From a virus, in the IMG/VR virus record IMGVR_UViG_3300031658_000026, positions 1 to 41,791 of that record: a stretch of 41,791 nt of DNA; one strand, 5' to 3'. The notes beneath the pieces are model-generated. The model ran no database searches, was not told where the DNA came from, and saw only the letters and a list, made by a program, of their open reading frames with translations. Of this stretch, positions 11,820-21,156 are shown piece after piece. The translations under genes were made by a program, and so were the position numbers. The first letter of the stretch is position 1; each line of letters begins with the position of its first letter.

Positions 11820-11827
11820 GATAAATA
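11820..11827 (+). promoter_or_regulatory. late promoter GATAAATA of the lysis genes
   Basis: The predicted +1 is 11833. The leader holds TAATA (11834-11838) and TATTA (11843-11847) around GAGG, so the Shine-Dalgarno lies in the loop of a short AU stem, 9 bases before the ATG at 11851. Confidence 0.65.
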
Positions 11828-11850
11828 CCTACATAATAGAGGTATTACAT

Positions 11851-12315
11851 ATGCAACTTTCAGAAAATTTTTCCTTAAAGGAATTATTACGGAGCGACAC
11901 TGCAACCCGAAAGGGCATTGTCAATGAGCCCGACGACCAACAACTAGAAAACTTAAAACACCTAGCACAAAATATATTGCAGCCAGTGCGCGATCAGTTT
12001 GGCTCAACCACAGTGAACAGTGGGTTACGTGTGCTGGAACTAAACCGAGCAATTGGCAGCAGCGACACTAGTCAACATGCTAAAGGCGAAGCAGCCGACA
12101 TTGAATGTCGTGCAGTTAGCAACCTTGAACTAGCACAATGGATTCGTGATGATTTGGACTTTGACCAGGTTATACTGGAAGCATATGATGGTGTAGATCC
12201 ACGCAGTGGTTGGGTTCATGTTAGTTACAAGGCAGATGGTTCCAACCGTAAGAAATGCTTAACAGCCACTTTCACAGGCGGAAAAGCTCACTATTCTAAT
12301 GGGTTGCCAGACTAA
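11851..12315 (+). CDS. M15-family peptidase endolysin
   Basis: This 154-residue protein has the zinc ligands of M15 D-Ala-D-Ala/L-Ala-D-Glu peptidases. SQHAKGEAADIE supplies His76 and Asp83 (H-x6-D) and GWVHVSY gives His123. The N-terminal MQLSENFSLKELLRSDTATRKG and NSGLRVLELN are typical of this type. It should cut peptide bonds in peptidoglycan and so act as the lysin. No signal peptide is present, so a holin is needed, but none is recognised nearby. The stop overlaps the spanin gene start by one base, giving a lysin / i-spanin / o-spanin order. Confidence 0.9.
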   Translation: MQLSENFSLKELLRSDTATRKGIVNEPDDQQLENLKHLAQNILQPVRDQFGSTTVNSGLRVLELNRAIGSSDTSQHAKGEAADIECRAVSNLELAQWIRDDLDFDQVILEAYDGVDPRSGWVHVSYKADGSNRKKCLTATFTGGKAHYSNGLPD

Positions 12316-12737
12316 TGTTTAGTGCTATTAAAATTGCAATAATATTAACTTTACTTGCTACAGCAGCAGGTGGGGTTCTTTATGTTAAGCAACTACAGAG
12401 TAATCTGGAAATAGCCCGAGCAAATGTCGCGCAAATGGAAGTGGCTGTACATATAAGTGAAACCAGTGTTGCTACTTTGCAACAAGACGCTGTTCGCAAT
12501 GCAGAGCTTAATATAGCATTACAGCAGAACTTACAACAAGCAGAGCAGTACGGAGATGAACTCCGAGCCACTCTAAACAAACACAACCTAACACACTTGG
12601 CTAACAAGAAGCCGGGCTTGATCCAAAAGAGGATGCAAAATGCAACTGACAAGTTATGGGATGATCTTGCTGCTATTACTGACCCTGTCGGGGTGCAGCT
12701 TATTGACTCCAGAACCCAAAATACAAATAGTAACTAA
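12315..12737 (+). CDS. inner-membrane spanin (Rz-like)
   Basis: This 140-residue protein has an N-terminal transmembrane anchor (residues 5-25, IKIAIILTLLATAAGGVLYV). A long heptad-like coiled coil in the periplasm follows (roughly 27-95, rich in Q, A, L and E), with a further helix KRMQNATDKLWDDLAAIT. This is the plan of lambda Rz. It follows the lysin and its 3' end overlaps a lipoprotein gene in another frame, as in Rz/Rz1 pairs. The i-spanin spans the periplasm and, with the o-spanin, fuses inner and outer membranes at the last step of lysis. Confidence 0.8.
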   Translation: MFSAIKIAIILTLLATAAGGVLYVKQLQSNLEIARANVAQMEVAVHISETSVATLQQDAVRNAELNIALQQNLQQAEQYGDELRATLNKHNLTHLANKKPGLIQKRMQNATDKLWDDLAAITDPVGVQLIDSRTQNTNSN

Positions 12738-13014
12738 TACTGTAAAAACAATTGTACCTATAGTTGCTCGTCCCAAGCAAGTACAACTCAACAAGGTGAA
12801 GATCTATGTTGTTAATAAAAACAACTACGACGAGTTTGTGGCGGAGTTTACTGCAAAGAACGGTGCAGATGCACACATTGCTATTAGTATAAAAGATTAC
12901 GAAAATCTGAGTTTAAACTTTGCTGAACTAAGACGCTACATTGTACAGCAAAAACAAATTATTGTTTACTATGAAGACGCTGTTGCACCCGAAGAAGTTG
13001 CCTTGCCCGAGTAA
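12640..13014 (+). CDS. outer-membrane lipoprotein spanin (Rz1-like)
   Basis: This 124-residue protein has a signal sequence with a lipobox, LLLLLTLSGC. The lipidated Cys would be Cys19, and the next residue is Ser, so Lol sorting to the outer membrane is expected. It overlaps the i-spanin gene by 98 bases in a different frame, and AGAGG (12628-12632) is well placed for its ATG. Classic Rz1 is proline-rich and about 40-60 residues when mature. This one is longer and less proline-rich, with a mixed alpha/beta body. Position, overlap and lipobox make o-spanin the best call; another phage lipoprotein is the alternative. Confidence 0.75.
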   Translation: MQLTSYGMILLLLLTLSGCSLLTPEPKIQIVTNTVKTIVPIVARPKQVQLNKVKIYVVNKNNYDEFVAEFTAKNGADAHIAISIKDYENLSLNFAELRRYIVQQKQIIVYYEDAVAPEEVALPE

Positions 13015-13047: not shown

Positions 13048-13086
13048 TTGTTGTATTATACACATAAATATTGTATAATACAACAA
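13048..13086. promoter_or_regulatory. 39-bp perfect inverted repeat carrying overlapping early and late promoters
   Basis: Two 15-bp arms (13048-13062 and 13072-13086) are exact reverse complements. The 9-base centre, CATAAATAT, contains the late octamer CATAAATA (13063-13070). The arms form a sigma70 promoter, TTGTAT (13051-13056) - 17 - TATAAT (13074-13079). By symmetry they form the same promoter on the reverse strand. The dnaJ ATG is 8 bases after the -10 box. Confidence 0.8.
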
Positions 13087-13087
13087 T

Positions 13088-13855
13088 ATGACAACACATC
13101 ACACTATACTAGAGATAAACACAGACGCATCGCAAGCTGAGATCAAGAAGGCTTACAGGCGTATGGCTAGCAAATATCATCCAGATAAAGACGGTGGCAG
13201 TGATGAAAAGTTCAAACAAATACAAGAAGCATATGATCGGCTATCTCATCCAGATAAGTATCAGCAAGAGCACACTAATGTTAACTGGAATGACGCCAGG
13301 GTTGTAAATTGGGAGACATTCGGCGAGAATATATTCCGACAACAGCAACGACCTGTTATAGTACAAATAACAGTTGGTTTAGAATCCACTCTACACGATC
13401 AGGTTCGCAATATAGATCTAAAAGCACATAACATAGCACCAACACAAATAACTATTCCAGCTGGTGTTGGGCATGGCGAATCGATACGTTATAATGTAAA
13501 TCCATTGAATCCGAATAACTACAGTACAAGCCAAATTATTGTGCAATTTAACATCGAACAGCATCCTGGCTTTGTGATTGCGCAGGGACATCTTGTAAAA
13601 CAAGTCGAAGTTGATGCGTTTGATTGTATGTTGGGTAAAGATCTGTTAGTTAACACACTGGACAACAAAACATTAAGAATCAAGTTACCGGCCGGATCGC
13701 AACATGGTGCAAAATTAAAGATTCCTGGCAACGGTCTGATGAGAAGAATGAATAACAAACGCGGCGATTTGTATATTGTTGTTAACATTATTATACCGCA
13801 GCTAACAACAAAACAGAAAGAAATTATTACTAACCTAAGAGAAGATATTAAATGA
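13088..13855 (+). CDS. dnaJ: DnaJ/CbpA-type co-chaperone
   Basis: This 255-residue protein starts with a J domain (about 1-65) containing the essential HPD at 31-33, which stimulates DnaK ATPase. Two beta-sheet substrate-binding domains follow (about 85-245). There is no zinc-finger region, so this is a type B Hsp40 like CbpA. The C-terminal segment KLPAGSQHGAKLKIPGNGLM matches the DnaJ CTD II signature (LRxxGxGxP-like), and ITIPAGVGHGESIRY matches CTD I. The phage version probably steers host DnaK toward phage proteins. Its start codon directly follows the 13048-13086 palindromic promoter, predicting a leaderless mRNA. The stop overlaps clpA (ATGA). Confidence 0.93.
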   Translation: MTTHHTILEINTDASQAEIKKAYRRMASKYHPDKDGGSDEKFKQIQEAYDRLSHPDKYQQEHTNVNWNDARVVNWETFGENIFRQQQRPVIVQITVGLESTLHDQVRNIDLKAHNIAPTQITIPAGVGHGESIRYNVNPLNPNNYSTSQIIVQFNIEQHPGFVIAQGHLVKQVEVDAFDCMLGKDLLVNTLDNKTLRIKLPAGSQHGAKLKIPGNGLMRRMNNKRGDLYIVVNIIIPQLTTKQKEIITNLREDIK

Positions 13856-16152
13856 GTGACGAAAAGCATATAGACCATTCGGAAATCGAAGAGATCATAC
13901 GACGAGCTACAACGTATGCATTGGAAAACAGGCAACAATATGTCACAGTGGAGCATTTGTCACTTGCGTTGCTGACATACAAATCGTTTTATATGCTAAT
14001 CCAAGCTGCAGGTGTTGATGTTGATGCAATGGTTGCTGAACTAGCAAGACATATAGCAAATAACGAAGAGATTACTTTGTTGGACATTGACGACATACAG
14101 CCAAAGAAAACACACGGGCTAGAGCGCGTGTTTAATCGAGCATTAACTCGCGTGCTGTTTAGCGGCAAGCCACAAATAGCACCTATAGATTTATACTTTA
14201 GTATTCTGCAAGAAACAAATTCACATGCTGTTTATTTCTTTGAAAAATATGGATTAGATCCAGACGATCTTGAAGAGATGGTGTACGCAACATACGACGG
14301 CGAGTCTGATCAGAACGCAATGGCACTCAGCGACAAGCAAGTTAATGAAATACTAAATGAGTATTGCGATAACTTAAATAACGCCGCAATACACGGCAAA
14401 ATAGACCCAGTGATTGGTAGACAGTCCGAATTGGATGAAATCATTGACGTACTTGCTAAACGTAACAAGCGCAACATATTAATGGTCGGCGACCCAGGCG
14501 TTGGCAAAACTGCCATTGCAGAAGGATTGGCATTAAAAATAACACAAGGACTAGTACCTAATTATTTAAAAGAATATATCGTATACAGTTTAGATATCGG
14601 GCACATTGTGGCTGGCAGCAAATATCGAGGCGACTTCGAAGAAAAGCTAAAACAAATTATCGCAGCACTTAAAGCAAAAGGCAAATGTGTATTGTTTATA
14701 GACGAGGCGCATCAGATGTCAGGTGCCGGTGCAACAGGTGGCAAGTCTGGTCCAGACTTTGCTAATATGATCAAACCAGCCTTAAACAAAGGCGACATTA
14801 AAGTTATTGCCAGCACTACATGGGAAGAATATGGACAGTCATTTGAAAAAGATCGGGCGCTTATGCGTAGATTTTATCGACTAACAGTAGACGAGCCATC
14901 AGTGTCAGACGCCAAGGCAATCCTGCGCGGATTGAAACCCTACTTTGAAGAATTCCATGGAGGCAAGATTGCAAACACTGCTATTGATGCTGCTGTTGAT
15001 CTTAGTGTTCGTTACCAGCATGACCAACGGTTACCGGACAAGGCAATTGATCTTATTGATACAGCGTGTGCTAAGATGAAAGTCAAAAACAAATCTTTTA
15101 CTATTCAACGTAAGAACATTATTGCAGCTATTAGCAAGGCAACTAAAATACCAATGGATCAAATCGGAACATCTAATAACAATAAGACGTGCGTTGACTT
15201 AGACGCAAATATTAAAAAAGTTGTGTTTGGACAAGACGGCGCCATTGAAAGATTAGTAGAAAAGGTTTATGTGGCTAAGGCAGGACTCAAATCACATGAA
15301 AAGCCAATGGGGTCTTTCTTGTTTACAGGACCAACGGGTGTTGGTAAAACCGAACTTGCTAAACGATTAGCAGAAAGCCTTGGACTCAAACTGTTGCGTT
15401 ATGACATGTCCGAATACATGGAAAAACACACAGTGGCCAAATTGATTGGTGCTCCGCCGGGTTATGTTGGATTTGATGACAGCAACACTGGCGGCGGGCA
15501 GCTAATTAACGATATTCAGCATAGTCCAAATTGTATTGTTTTGTTGGACGAAATTGAAAAGGCACACCCAGATGTTCTTAATATATTGTTACAGTTAATG
15601 GATGCTGGGCGATTGACCGGATCTAATGGTAAAACAGCAGACTTTCGTAATGGCATACTTATTATGACCAGTAACCTGGGTGCAAAGGAAGGCGATGCGA
15701 ACAGAATAGGCTTTGGTGCGCAACAGAAATCAGGAGAAGATGACAAAGCAACGAAGAACTTCTTTAGCCCTGAATTTAGAAATCGCCTAGACGCTATATG
15801 CAAGTTTAATGCATTGGATACATTGCATGTTAAGCGTATTGTAAATAAATTTGTTGGCGAAATGAATGACCTTATACGAGAGCGCGGACATGCTATTCGC
15901 TTAACAGAGCTAGCCACCGACGAGATTGTCAGACTGGGTTATGATCCGAAGATGGGTGCTCGTCCAATTGAGCGTATGATAAATGATCATATTAAAGTTC
16001 CTGTTAGTAAGATGATGTTGTTTGACGAATTACCAACAAAGTCCGTTATTACAGTTGACTTTCTAGACGGAGATTTTTTGTTTAGTCACAGCACAGCACA
16101 ACCAGCTATTGCTAATAATAGTCAGCTGGTATTAAGCCATGACAATAGATAA
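13852..16152 (+). CDS. clpA: ClpA-type AAA+ unfoldase
   Basis: This 766-residue protein is the size of E. coli ClpA (758). It has an N-terminal Clp repeat domain (about 1-145). AAA-1 has Walker A GDPGVGKT (213-220) and Walker B LFIDEAH (281-287). AAA-2 has Walker A GPTGVGKT (493-500) and Walker B VLLDEIE (563-569). There is no ClpB-type middle coiled-coil. A ClpP-docking loop is present as IGFG at 619-622, matching the IGL/IGF loop position in ClpA and ClpX. It should therefore dock host ClpP and feed it substrates, redirecting host proteolysis. It is translationally coupled to dnaJ by ATGA. Its TAA stop overlaps a late promoter. Confidence 0.95.
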   Translation: MSDEKHIDHSEIEEIIRRATTYALENRQQYVTVEHLSLALLTYKSFYMLIQAAGVDVDAMVAELARHIANNEEITLLDIDDIQPKKTHGLERVFNRALTRVLFSGKPQIAPIDLYFSILQETNSHAVYFFEKYGLDPDDLEEMVYATYDGESDQNAMALSDKQVNEILNEYCDNLNNAAIHGKIDPVIGRQSELDEIIDVLAKRNKRNILMVGDPGVGKTAIAEGLALKITQGLVPNYLKEYIVYSLDIGHIVAGSKYRGDFEEKLKQIIAALKAKGKCVLFIDEAHQMSGAGATGGKSGPDFANMIKPALNKGDIKVIASTTWEEYGQSFEKDRALMRRFYRLTVDEPSVSDAKAILRGLKPYFEEFHGGKIANTAIDAAVDLSVRYQHDQRLPDKAIDLIDTACAKMKVKNKSFTIQRKNIIAAISKATKIPMDQIGTSNNNKTCVDLDANIKKVVFGQDGAIERLVEKVYVAKAGLKSHEKPMGSFLFTGPTGVGKTELAKRLAESLGLKLLRYDMSEYMEKHTVAKLIGAPPGYVGFDDSNTGGGQLINDIQHSPNCIVLLDEIEKAHPDVLNILLQLMDAGRLTGSNGKTADFRNGILIMTSNLGAKEGDANRIGFGAQQKSGEDDKATKNFFSPEFRNRLDAICKFNALDTLHVKRIVNKFVGEMNDLIRERGHAIRLTELATDEIVRLGYDPKMGARPIERMINDHIKVPVSKMMLFDELPTKSVITVDFLDGDFLFSHSTAQPAIANNSQLVLSHDNR

Positions 16153-19095: not shown

Positions 19096-21156
19096 ATGAG
19101 ATTATCAGAAGTGTCGGCAGACAAGCAAGTAGTAGTTATACTCCCCGGACGGTTCCAACCTTTCCATAAGGGTCATAAGGCTGTCTTTGATTATTTGTCT
19201 GGTAAATACGATAATGTCTATGTTGCCACAAGCGACAAAGTAAGTCCTCCACGATCACCATTCAATTTTGAAGAAAAGAAAATGATGATGGAATTAACCG
19301 GTATGGATACCACTAACGTTGTATTGACCAAAAGCCCATATGTTGCTACGGAAATAACACAACATTTCAACAAAGAGAATACCATATTACTATTTGCTAT
19401 TAGTGAGAAAGATATGGCACAAGATCCGCGATTTACTTTTAAACCAAAGAAGGACGGTAGCCCGTCATACTTTCAAAATGCTAAGGATGGCAATTTTGAA
19501 ACTATGGATAAACACGGTTACATGATTACTGTCCCCACATTCGAGTTTAGTGTACTAGGAAAACCAATGAAAAGCGCAACAGAAGTCAGAGCACAATTTG
19601 CGCAGGGTGATGAAACAACCAAACAGCATATAATAAAAGACTTGTTCGGGAACTATAGCGACCAGGTATTTGAATTAATGAACAAGAATATCACTGAAGA
19701 TATTAGTGAAGGCGGTTGGACCGATACAATAACACAACAAACAAAATTAACGCCCAATGTAGTACGAGCAGCATTAGGCACAACACAAACGTTCATTAAC
19801 GGATTTAATCGTTACCTAGAACGAGATGACCTTGGCGGTCCTGTTCGAATGGGTCCTCCGACCGGCAGCTCGGCATATTATAATGTGGATGATCCTGGAA
19901 AAGAATACGGCGACATCGACTTATCAATGATTGCACCAGACGAAGAAGGAATGACGGTTAACCAGCTATCAGCAAAATACAACAGGCTGATGGACCAGTT
20001 TATATCAGACCAGAAACCTGATGTAATACACAACCAAGGAAAACCAGCAGGTGGGCATCCTATTTTTAATATAGGAGACGATGCTAAAGTACAGATCGAT
20101 ATGCTATGGACTGGTGCTAAAATGAGCGACTGGAGCAGATGGAGAGTTACTCCTGAACGCGGAGTTAAGGGATTAGTATATGGTAACATGTATTCCAGCT
20201 TAGGCGAAGTATTGGGAATGAGTATACAACTAGCAGGCGTTCAATTAAAGACAATAAACGACTCGCCAGTGCCATTTTCTAATAGAAAAGGCACAGAATT
20301 GCACACTTTATCAACCGATATTAGCACTTTTGGTGTCGATATATTAAAAGCAGTATACAAGCAAGTTAATGGCACATTGGACAACATTACTATTGACCCT
20401 GTGTTACTGCGTAATCCTGGGCTAAAGAAACAGGAAGTAAAGATTAGTGATCTAGCACTTACCATCAAAGGACTTGCTAGTAGTTTTACATTAAACGATT
20501 TATACGGCAAATTTATATTGGCCAATTACAACACCGAACAAGAACTACTAGCAGCGTTCCTGACGCAGATTAATAAGAAAGCAGATGTTGCTCGAAACGC
20601 ACCAAAATTCAACAAGGCCAGCACGCCAGCAGAGCTGGATCGAGTTAAATCTATACAGGATCAGATCAGCAAAGGCATGTTAATTGTCAATTCAGCATTA
20701 ACTGAATCTGCTAGATTGGGCGGGTACCGACCGGACGATCGTCGCGTGTTTAGTGGATTAAACGGCGAACTTAAAACAGCAATTAGTTCACTAGATGAAT
20801 TATTCACATCCGTACGAAATGCACCAGCGGGTACTAAAATTAAGCAACGGTTCTTAATAAAGTTTCACACTATTATCGCTAAAATTAAACAACAGCTAAC
20901 ATCTGTTGAAGTACAGGAAAACAAAACATACCCAACATTAAAATTAGGTGTCTTTGCCAATGAGAATGCTAAAGTAAGCATATGGGAACACAACGGAACT
21001 ATTATATTAGTCGACGACAGTACACATAGATTTCAGGAAGCAGTTGATGTTACTACCGCAGTGAATATATTGTATGACCGTGGTTACACATGCAAAAGTG
21101 TGTGCGAAGAAGCTGCCACTCGTATACAATTAAAGTCCAATCAAAAGAAAAACTGA
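19096..21156 (+). CDS. fusion of HxGH cytidylyltransferase-like and pol-beta-type nucleotidyltransferase domains
   Basis: This 686-residue protein has two nucleotidyltransferase domains of different folds. Residues 10-170 are a Rossmann-type HxGH enzyme: GRFQPFHKGH (18-27) and KSATEVR (159-165, matching the ISSTxxR site), as in NMN or pantetheine-phosphate adenylyltransferases. Residues about 225-440 look like a pol-beta superfamily domain: GSSAYY followed by YGDIDLSM (271-278), with VQIDMLW as the probable third acidic strand. A helical C-terminal part follows. The first domain could make NAD or CDP-type products. The second could transfer NMP to RNA or protein. Gene position and late expression suggest a packaged or late-acting effector, but that is inference. 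The start is fixed by the late promoter. Confidence 0.75.
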   Translation: MRLSEVSADKQVVVILPGRFQPFHKGHKAVFDYLSGKYDNVYVATSDKVSPPRSPFNFEEKKMMMELTGMDTTNVVLTKSPYVATEITQHFNKENTILLFAISEKDMAQDPRFTFKPKKDGSPSYFQNAKDGNFETMDKHGYMITVPTFEFSVLGKPMKSATEVRAQFAQGDETTKQHIIKDLFGNYSDQVFELMNKNITEDISEGGWTDTITQQTKLTPNVVRAALGTTQTFINGFNRYLERDDLGGPVRMGPPTGSSAYYNVDDPGKEYGDIDLSMIAPDEEGMTVNQLSAKYNRLMDQFISDQKPDVIHNQGKPAGGHPIFNIGDDAKVQIDMLWTGAKMSDWSRWRVTPERGVKGLVYGNMYSSLGEVLGMSIQLAGVQLKTINDSPVPFSNRKGTELHTLSTDISTFGVDILKAVYKQVNGTLDNITIDPVLLRNPGLKKQEVKISDLALTIKGLASSFTLNDLYGKFILANYNTEQELLAAFLTQINKKADVARNAPKFNKASTPAELDRVKSIQDQISKGMLIVNSALTESARLGGYRPDDRRVFSGLNGELKTAISSLDELFTSVRNAPAGTKIKQRFLIKFHTIIAKIKQQLTSVEVQENKTYPTLKLGVFANENAKVSIWEHNGTIILVDDSTHRFQEAVDVTTAVNILYDRGYTCKSVCEEAATRIQLKSNQKKN

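Follow-up and report, generated by a model that had tools for sequence, protein, structure and literature searches.

A 39-bp palindrome at the dnaJ start of an uncultured T4-related jumbo phage: a probable promoter-in-hairpin switch

The dnaJ-clpA locus and its palindrome

The window, meaning the whole stretch of DNA analysed, is a complete IMG/VR record of viral sequence, 41,791 bases long. Its source is an uncultured T4-related jumbo phage, and the size of its relatives makes it likely that the contig is part of a longer genome. On its plus strand a lysis cassette leads into a pair of chaperone and unfoldase genes. The cassette comprises an endolysin of the M15 peptidase type (11851-12315; PF08291, PHROG 894), an i-spanin (12315-12737; PHROG 739) and an o-spanin (12640-13014; PHROG 812, Rz-like spanin). 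Downstream, dnaJ (13088-13855) encodes a protein of 255 aa with a J domain and a DnaJ_C domain (Pfam PF00226 and PF01556), and overlaps by 4 nt the gene for a ClpA-like ATPase of 766 aa (13852-16152; Pfam AAA_2/AAA/ClpB_D2-small, PHROG 4871), whose top annotated matches include the jumbo phages Atu_ph07, Phosso and PA5oct. The contig also carries genes for a DNA polymerase, a clamp loader, a dCMP deaminase, a QueE-like protein and a GTP cyclohydrolase.

Between the o-spanin gene and dnaJ lies a perfect 39-bp palindrome (13048-13086), built of two exact 15-bp arms and a 9-nt loop. Its 5' arm TTGTTGTATTATACA (13048-13062) is followed by the loop CATAAATAT (13063-13071) and by the 3' arm TGTATAATACAACAA (13072-13086), the exact complement of the first; a single T then separates the palindrome from the dnaJ ATG at 13088. 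The first-pass annotation had described this structure, and the sequence confirms it as one far beyond chance. It is the longest perfect inverted repeat (loop of at most 30 nt) in the 41.8 kb, where the runner-up has 12 bp, and the only inverted repeat reported between 12.5 and 13.6 kb; across 15 simulated first-order Markov sequences the maximum arm was 11 bp. As RNA the palindrome folds at −16.5 kcal/mol (z −4.5), which predicts a stable hairpin at the translation start of any read-through RNA. No Shine-Dalgarno sequence occurs in 13070-13087. One nucleotide separates the end of the helix from the AUG, for which the predicted probability of being unpaired is 0.71.

The dnaJ gene belongs to the heat-shock class, upstream of whose members RNA thermometers are known, and a hairpin at its start invites the comparison. 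That this one senses temperature is scarcely credible, as its predicted opening cost is 11.1 kcal/mol even at 50 °C and a search of Rfam returned just one chance match far below threshold and no match to a thermometer.

The palindrome holds two kinds of promoter-like element. A perfect −10 element, TATAAT (13074-13079), lies in the 3' arm 8 nt upstream of the dnaJ ATG and predicts a sigma70-type transcription start at about 13086. Seventeen bases before it stands a weak −35-like element, TTGTAT (13051-13056), which matches the consensus at 3 of 6 positions; relatives have TTGACT or TTGACA at the corresponding place. The same TTGTAT-17-TATAAT is read in mirror image on the minus strand (13055-13083), as the first-pass annotation had pointed out in proposing a symmetric promoter. 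The boxes do stand on both strands, but the symmetry follows automatically from the stem: a −10 box in one arm implies its complement in the other at the same spacing, so that the symmetric promoter is not independent evidence. The mirror promoter is best seen as a by-product of the stem that holds the −10 box. The second element is the octamer CATAAATA (13063-13070) in the loop, which resembles a T4 late promoter. The late octamer claimed earlier for the centre of the palindrome is indeed there, but it differs from the T4 consensus TATAAATA at one base and is confined to the plus strand. In the contig as a whole CATAAATA is not commoner than chance (6 seen, 4.6 expected). It lies 17 nt from the ATG, and the spacing common in the group is 5 nt. 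Judged by that spacing of ATAAATA to ATG, a putative late transcript would start at 13075-13077 (plus strand), inside the 3' arm, and would thus be devoid of the 5' arm.

Promoters and hairpins at dnaJ in relatives

Relatives were collected by a ClpA search, which gave 80 loci with dnaJ immediately 5' of clpA in nearly all, and by an o-spanin search, which gave 80 further loci with dnaJ downstream in 21. None is a close relative: their DnaJ proteins are about 25-36% identical to that of the window, a DnaJ search for closer ones found two distant loci only, and a megablast search with 11 kb against phages gave no match. The nearest lysis cassette plus dnaJ belongs to locus L067, whose o-spanin is 72% identical to that of the window. 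A small holin-like gene often stands between the o-spanin gene and dnaJ in the o-spanin-derived loci, and is absent from the window. In marine relatives (L117, L139, L141 and others) this gene, whose product begins MW and has one membrane-like segment as judged by eye, carries a late promoter and a hairpin of its own.

A sigma70-like promoter (TTGAC, 17, TATAAT) directly 5' of dnaJ is a conserved feature of the group. It scores at least 9 in 68 of 79 ClpA-derived loci, and in 56 of the 79 its −10 box ends 5-9 nt ahead of the dnaJ start, with a mode of exactly 6; of 1003 control starts taken from these loci, 68 attain that score and 9 have that spacing. The usual distance of 6-8 nt from the −10 box to the start suggests a dnaJ mRNA with little or no leader. 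The promoter scan missed the window because its −35 element matches the consensus so poorly. These data bear out the earlier assignment of a forward promoter to dnaJ-clpA, with a sigma70-like promoter about 6 nt before dnaJ conserved across the group.

The reverse promoter fares differently. The first-pass annotation had suggested that the palindrome is a symmetric bidirectional promoter whose minus-strand product, starting near 13048, is antisense to the lysis genes and delays lysis. The minus-strand boxes are present, and bacteria commonly have bidirectional promoters (PMC12825309). This reading is nevertheless very unlikely, since the reverse boxes come with the stem and are not enriched at dnaJ. 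Promoters scoring at least 10 upstream of dnaJ point forward in 53 of 84 relatives and backward in 4 of 84, while the background at other starts is 29 of 1149 forward and 28 of 1149 reverse. In addition, the two predicted starts (about 13086 and 13048) are 38 bp apart with separate −10 boxes, not the 10, 18 or 23 bp found by Warman et al. for bidirectional sigma70 promoters with a shared −10 element (PMC12825309), and the late octamer functions in one direction only. Locus L067 keeps TTGACT-17-TATAAT and has the stretch TTGTATAAT in common with the window, yet the palindrome is absent, so that promoter boxes persist where the second arm does not; for the symmetric part of its proposal, this is the outcome that the first-pass annotation itself had named as refuting.

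Hairpins, like promoters, are concentrated at dnaJ. They were counted between −75 and +15 of distinct dnaJ starts and of other starts. Arms of at least 9 bp occur at 38 of 83 dnaJ starts (46%) and at 36 of 1004 others (3.6%; odds ratio 22.7), and arms of at least 12 bp at 12 of 83 and 1 of 1004, respectively; the 15 bp of the window are the maximum. The window palindrome could be the recent product of mutation, through correction of a quasi-palindrome by template switching, and have no function of its own. Both its exact 15/15 pairing and its absence from L067 fit such an origin, which is still highly improbable as a full account, because the roughly 12-fold excess of hairpins at dnaJ starts over other starts in the group argues for selection at this position.

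Stem sequences vary among relatives while pairing is retained. In freshwater dnaJ loci, the longest complementarity is 6.59 for matched arms, as against 5.05 when arms are swapped between loci (z 11.2, 0 of 5000 permutations; shared ancestry uncorrected), and the effect is absent from a control stretch shifted upstream by 50 nt (z 1.0). The marine result is weak (z 2.5, 246 of 5000), with 8 sequences and a right arm that is partly coding. Standard pairs make up 97.9% of the pair cells in the marine dnaJ set and two pairs are changed on both sides, a count that 42 of 500 shuffles reached.

The dnaJ hairpins come in three styles. The freshwater majority has a terminator-like stem with TTGAC in the loop, then a T-tract and then TATAAT; many of these loci read AAAGCCGG..TTGACT..CCGGCTTTTTC, followed by TATAAT and ATG, and most have no late octamer at dnaJ. 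Marine relatives have the order AATAGTCCATGC-GATAAGTATTT-GCATGGACTATT, a stem of 10-12 bp whose 3' arm includes the ATG and whose loop holds a late-promoter-like ATAAGTA 5 nt ahead of it. The window represents the third style, with a late-type octamer in the loop and a −10 box in the 3' arm. Four loci (L097, L137, L140 and L145) have upstream of dnaJ the arrangement AAAGGAT-TGCTTAAGGAGG-ATCCTTT, in which a strong Shine-Dalgarno sequence occupies the hairpin loop.

The freshwater style raises the question of whether the window hairpin is mainly a 3'-end, termination or insulation element of the lysis mRNA that happens to overlap the dnaJ promoter. The GC stem, T-tract and TTGAC-containing loop of the freshwater relatives speak for this, as does the nearly identical place of the window hairpin, but its stem contains 3 G-C pairs in 15, no T-tract follows on either strand (TATGACAACAC comes next) and the terminator scan did not list it. 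A terminator is consequently judged unlikely here.

The arms can also be read as DNA. Each contains an inner inverted repeat, TGTAT-W-ATACA, and the two centres are exactly 20 bp apart, so that a dimeric or tetrameric repressor on two TGTATWATACA half-sites might block the promoter. The same arm core with a 9-nt loop does recur in two unrelated phage loci, L085 and a locus sampled three times as L086-L088. The operator, which the first-pass annotation had offered as one option, is decidedly unlikely even so. A scan of the 41.8-kb contig that allowed as many as 2 mismatches found the arm nowhere else, and the arms at dnaJ in relatives differ from it and change freely as long as pairing is kept. 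Nor is the spacing preferred: among 35 bacterial contigs that contain these arms, 13 have a 4-nt loop and a single one has a 9-nt loop, and the idea that such arm pairs favour a 17-bp promoter spacing was dropped on these figures. Exact arm-core pairs in viral contigs amount to three independent loci with loops of 9, 9 and 17 nt, and a control pattern of the same composition gave loops of 8, 10, 10 and 13 nt.

The palindrome in L085 (11177-11219 of that unrelated phage) has 17-bp arms and the core TTGTATTATACA-N9-TGTATAATACAA. It lies in the gap between divergent genes, amid further partial repeats resembling ATAATACA.

The late motif and hairpins at other genes

The promoters for late transcription of T4 lack a −35 element and consist of a TATA box of 8 bp, located roughly one helical turn upstream of the start (PMC2988020). 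The core word ATAAATA is strongly biased by strand in the phage group, with 18 plus-strand and 2 minus-strand copies in the window and 295 and 13 in relatives, while similar words are balanced (TTAAATA 125:120, ATAATAA 175:164). This bias, together with position, marks ATAAATA as functional; the frequency of CATAAATA in the contig does not, and for a count of ATAAATA across genomes there is no useful control, since reversing the word yields the same letters.

The word stands exactly 5 nt before an ATG at 38 sites, 29 of which open reading frames of at least 60 aa, and at spacings of 2-4 nt there is none. In the window such sites lie at 2276, 10648, 19084, 21189 and 21941, and among relatives they are found in L005-L084. 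Over 150 kb of T4, by comparison, just 1 of 29 TATAAATA sites has the 5-nt spacing. The peak would place the RNA start 5-7 nt after the motif, implying leaderless late mRNAs.

A late sigma factor like gp55 of T4 is encoded in all six relative contigs longer than 280 kb (289-374 kb). The two such proteins that were checked match PHROG 12791 (sigma factor for late transcription, E about 1e-80) and PHROG 234 (late sigma transcription factor, E about 1e-24). The evidence comes from the relatives, the window being a 41.8-kb fragment. With this factor, and with the late-promoter-like element in the dnaJ hairpin of relatives, the early/late control that the first-pass annotation had listed among its options gains support.

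Hairpins and the late motif also go together away from dnaJ. Among other starts, an ATAAATA is nearby in 21 of 58 with a hairpin of at least 8 bp and in 174 of 1017 without (odds ratio 2.7). The genes with both include an i-spanin-like gene, an endolysin and a cytidylyltransferase-like gene. When arms are swapped, the pairing is specific for the cytidylyltransferase-like gene (z 11.9) and the i-spanin-like gene (z 4.6), shared ancestry again being uncorrected. At the former the upstream arm pairs around the start codon and tracks changes there, including synonymous ones. For the holin-like gene (z 1.2) and the L068-type endolysin (z 0.6) the test was not significant, despite individual hairpins that look convincing.

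About 55 loci carry homologs of the cytidylyltransferase-like gene of the window (19096-21156) in which a late promoter precedes a hairpin at the start codon. In the window itself the gene lacks the hairpin, but a late motif lies 5 nt ahead of its ATG.

A second element of this kind lies at the window endolysin (11821-11846, plus strand). Its ATAAATA (11821-11827) overlaps the 5' arm AATACCT (11824-11830), and its 3' arm AGGTATT (11840-11846) covers the GAGGT Shine-Dalgarno sequence, an arrangement like that of T4 gene e.

A probable promoter-in-hairpin gate and its known counterparts

The T4 lysozyme-type control offers the closest model. T4 gene e has the sequence AATACCTTC-TATAAATACTTA-GGAGGTATT-ATG. 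Its long early transcripts fold into an inhibitory structure, whereas transcripts from the late promoters do not contain the 5' strand and are well translated, a mechanism that is established (PMC3014915, PMC2988022); soc, 49, I-TevI and segB, as well as mobE of phage Aeh1, are subject to the same type of control.

The window palindrome is probably a switch of the T4 gene e kind acting on dnaJ-clpA. RNA reading through from the lysis genes would carry both arms and fold into the 15-bp hairpin, whose end, 1 nt from the AUG, would occupy the ribosome landing site and leave dnaJ poorly translated. RNA begun at the element itself would start past the 5' arm, remain open and be translated from a very short leader or none. 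Early in infection such RNA could be made by host RNA polymerase at the sigma70-like −10 box in the 3' arm, and late in infection by a gp55-type enzyme at the loop octamer. The switch would uncouple the chaperone and unfoldase genes from the lysis operon and tie them to promoters of their own.

Predicted opening energies, taken as the cost of opening −18 to +15 of the RNA start region, are consistent with this switch. For the window dnaJ the cost falls from 13.7 kcal/mol in read-through RNA to 0.4 kcal/mol in late-start RNA, for T4 gene e from 16.5 to 1.6, for dnaJ of the marine relative L123 from 21.2 to 0.8 and for the window endolysin from 8.0 to 2.5, although a short RNA has less to unfold in any case, which accounts for part of the low values. 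Of the late-motif sites in the window that precede an open reading frame, the one at dnaJ shows the greatest fall, and the predicted block disappears as the RNA start is shifted through the 5' arm. Weighing against the switch are the 17-nt distance from the octamer to the ATG, the freshwater relatives, most of which have no late octamer at dnaJ and whose hairpins often resemble terminators, and L067, where the promoter stands without a hairpin.

A wider interpretation is possible, and is put forward more tentatively than the switch itself. The element may be a dual-promoter gate, in which a host sigma70-type −10 box and a phage late octamer are embedded in a hairpin that silences incoming RNA, so that only its own leaderless or near-leaderless messages express dnaJ-clpA. 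The principle may have been built repeatedly, with unrelated arms, at dnaJ and at a number of further genes in a large group of uncultured T4-related jumbo phages. Control of the gene e type is known from few genes, all of T4 or T4-like phages. The present data suggest that a large uncultured jumbo phage group uses the same logic widely, at i-spanin-like, cytidylyltransferase and dnaJ-clpA genes and probably also at endolysin and holin-like genes, and that it combines hairpin gating with early and late mRNAs that have no leader. If so, sequence by itself would suffice to find promoter-in-hairpin gating in phages from metagenomes, and there would be a simple reason for palindromes that resemble operators or cruciforms.

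A comparison of the window with these and other known systems brings out what is shared and what is not. As in T4 gene e, a late octamer lies within the hairpin, the 3' arm lies against the start codon, the late RNA, here by prediction, is without the 5' arm, and the opening energy goes from high to low. The helix of the window dnaJ, in contrast, sequesters neither a Shine-Dalgarno sequence nor the AUG; there is no Shine-Dalgarno sequence to cover and the helix ends 1 nt short of the AUG. In the marine relatives the stem does take in the AUG, and at the window endolysin the 3' arm does cover the GAGGT. With the AUG mostly unpaired, the block would be less direct than that of T4 gene e, and the window element is accordingly said to work like the gene e type without being a member of it. 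It differs further in the sigma70-like −10 box that also lies in the 3' arm, and in the gene controlled, which is dnaJ and not a lysis or endonuclease gene.

Three other arrangements resemble the element in part. At seg43(25) of Aeromonas phage 25 a stable hairpin lies just upstream of the initiation site, its effect being unproven (PMC2988022); like that of the window, it adjoins the initiation site without covering it, but the passage on it describes no nested promoter. The promoters of Warman et al. share with the window boxes that can be read on both strands, and differ from its separate boxes, its more distant starts and a symmetry that is not conserved. Finally, the freshwater terminators that overlap the dnaJ promoter occupy nearly the same place and have promoter boxes inside or beside the hairpin, while the stem of the window is A+T-rich and lacks the T-tract.
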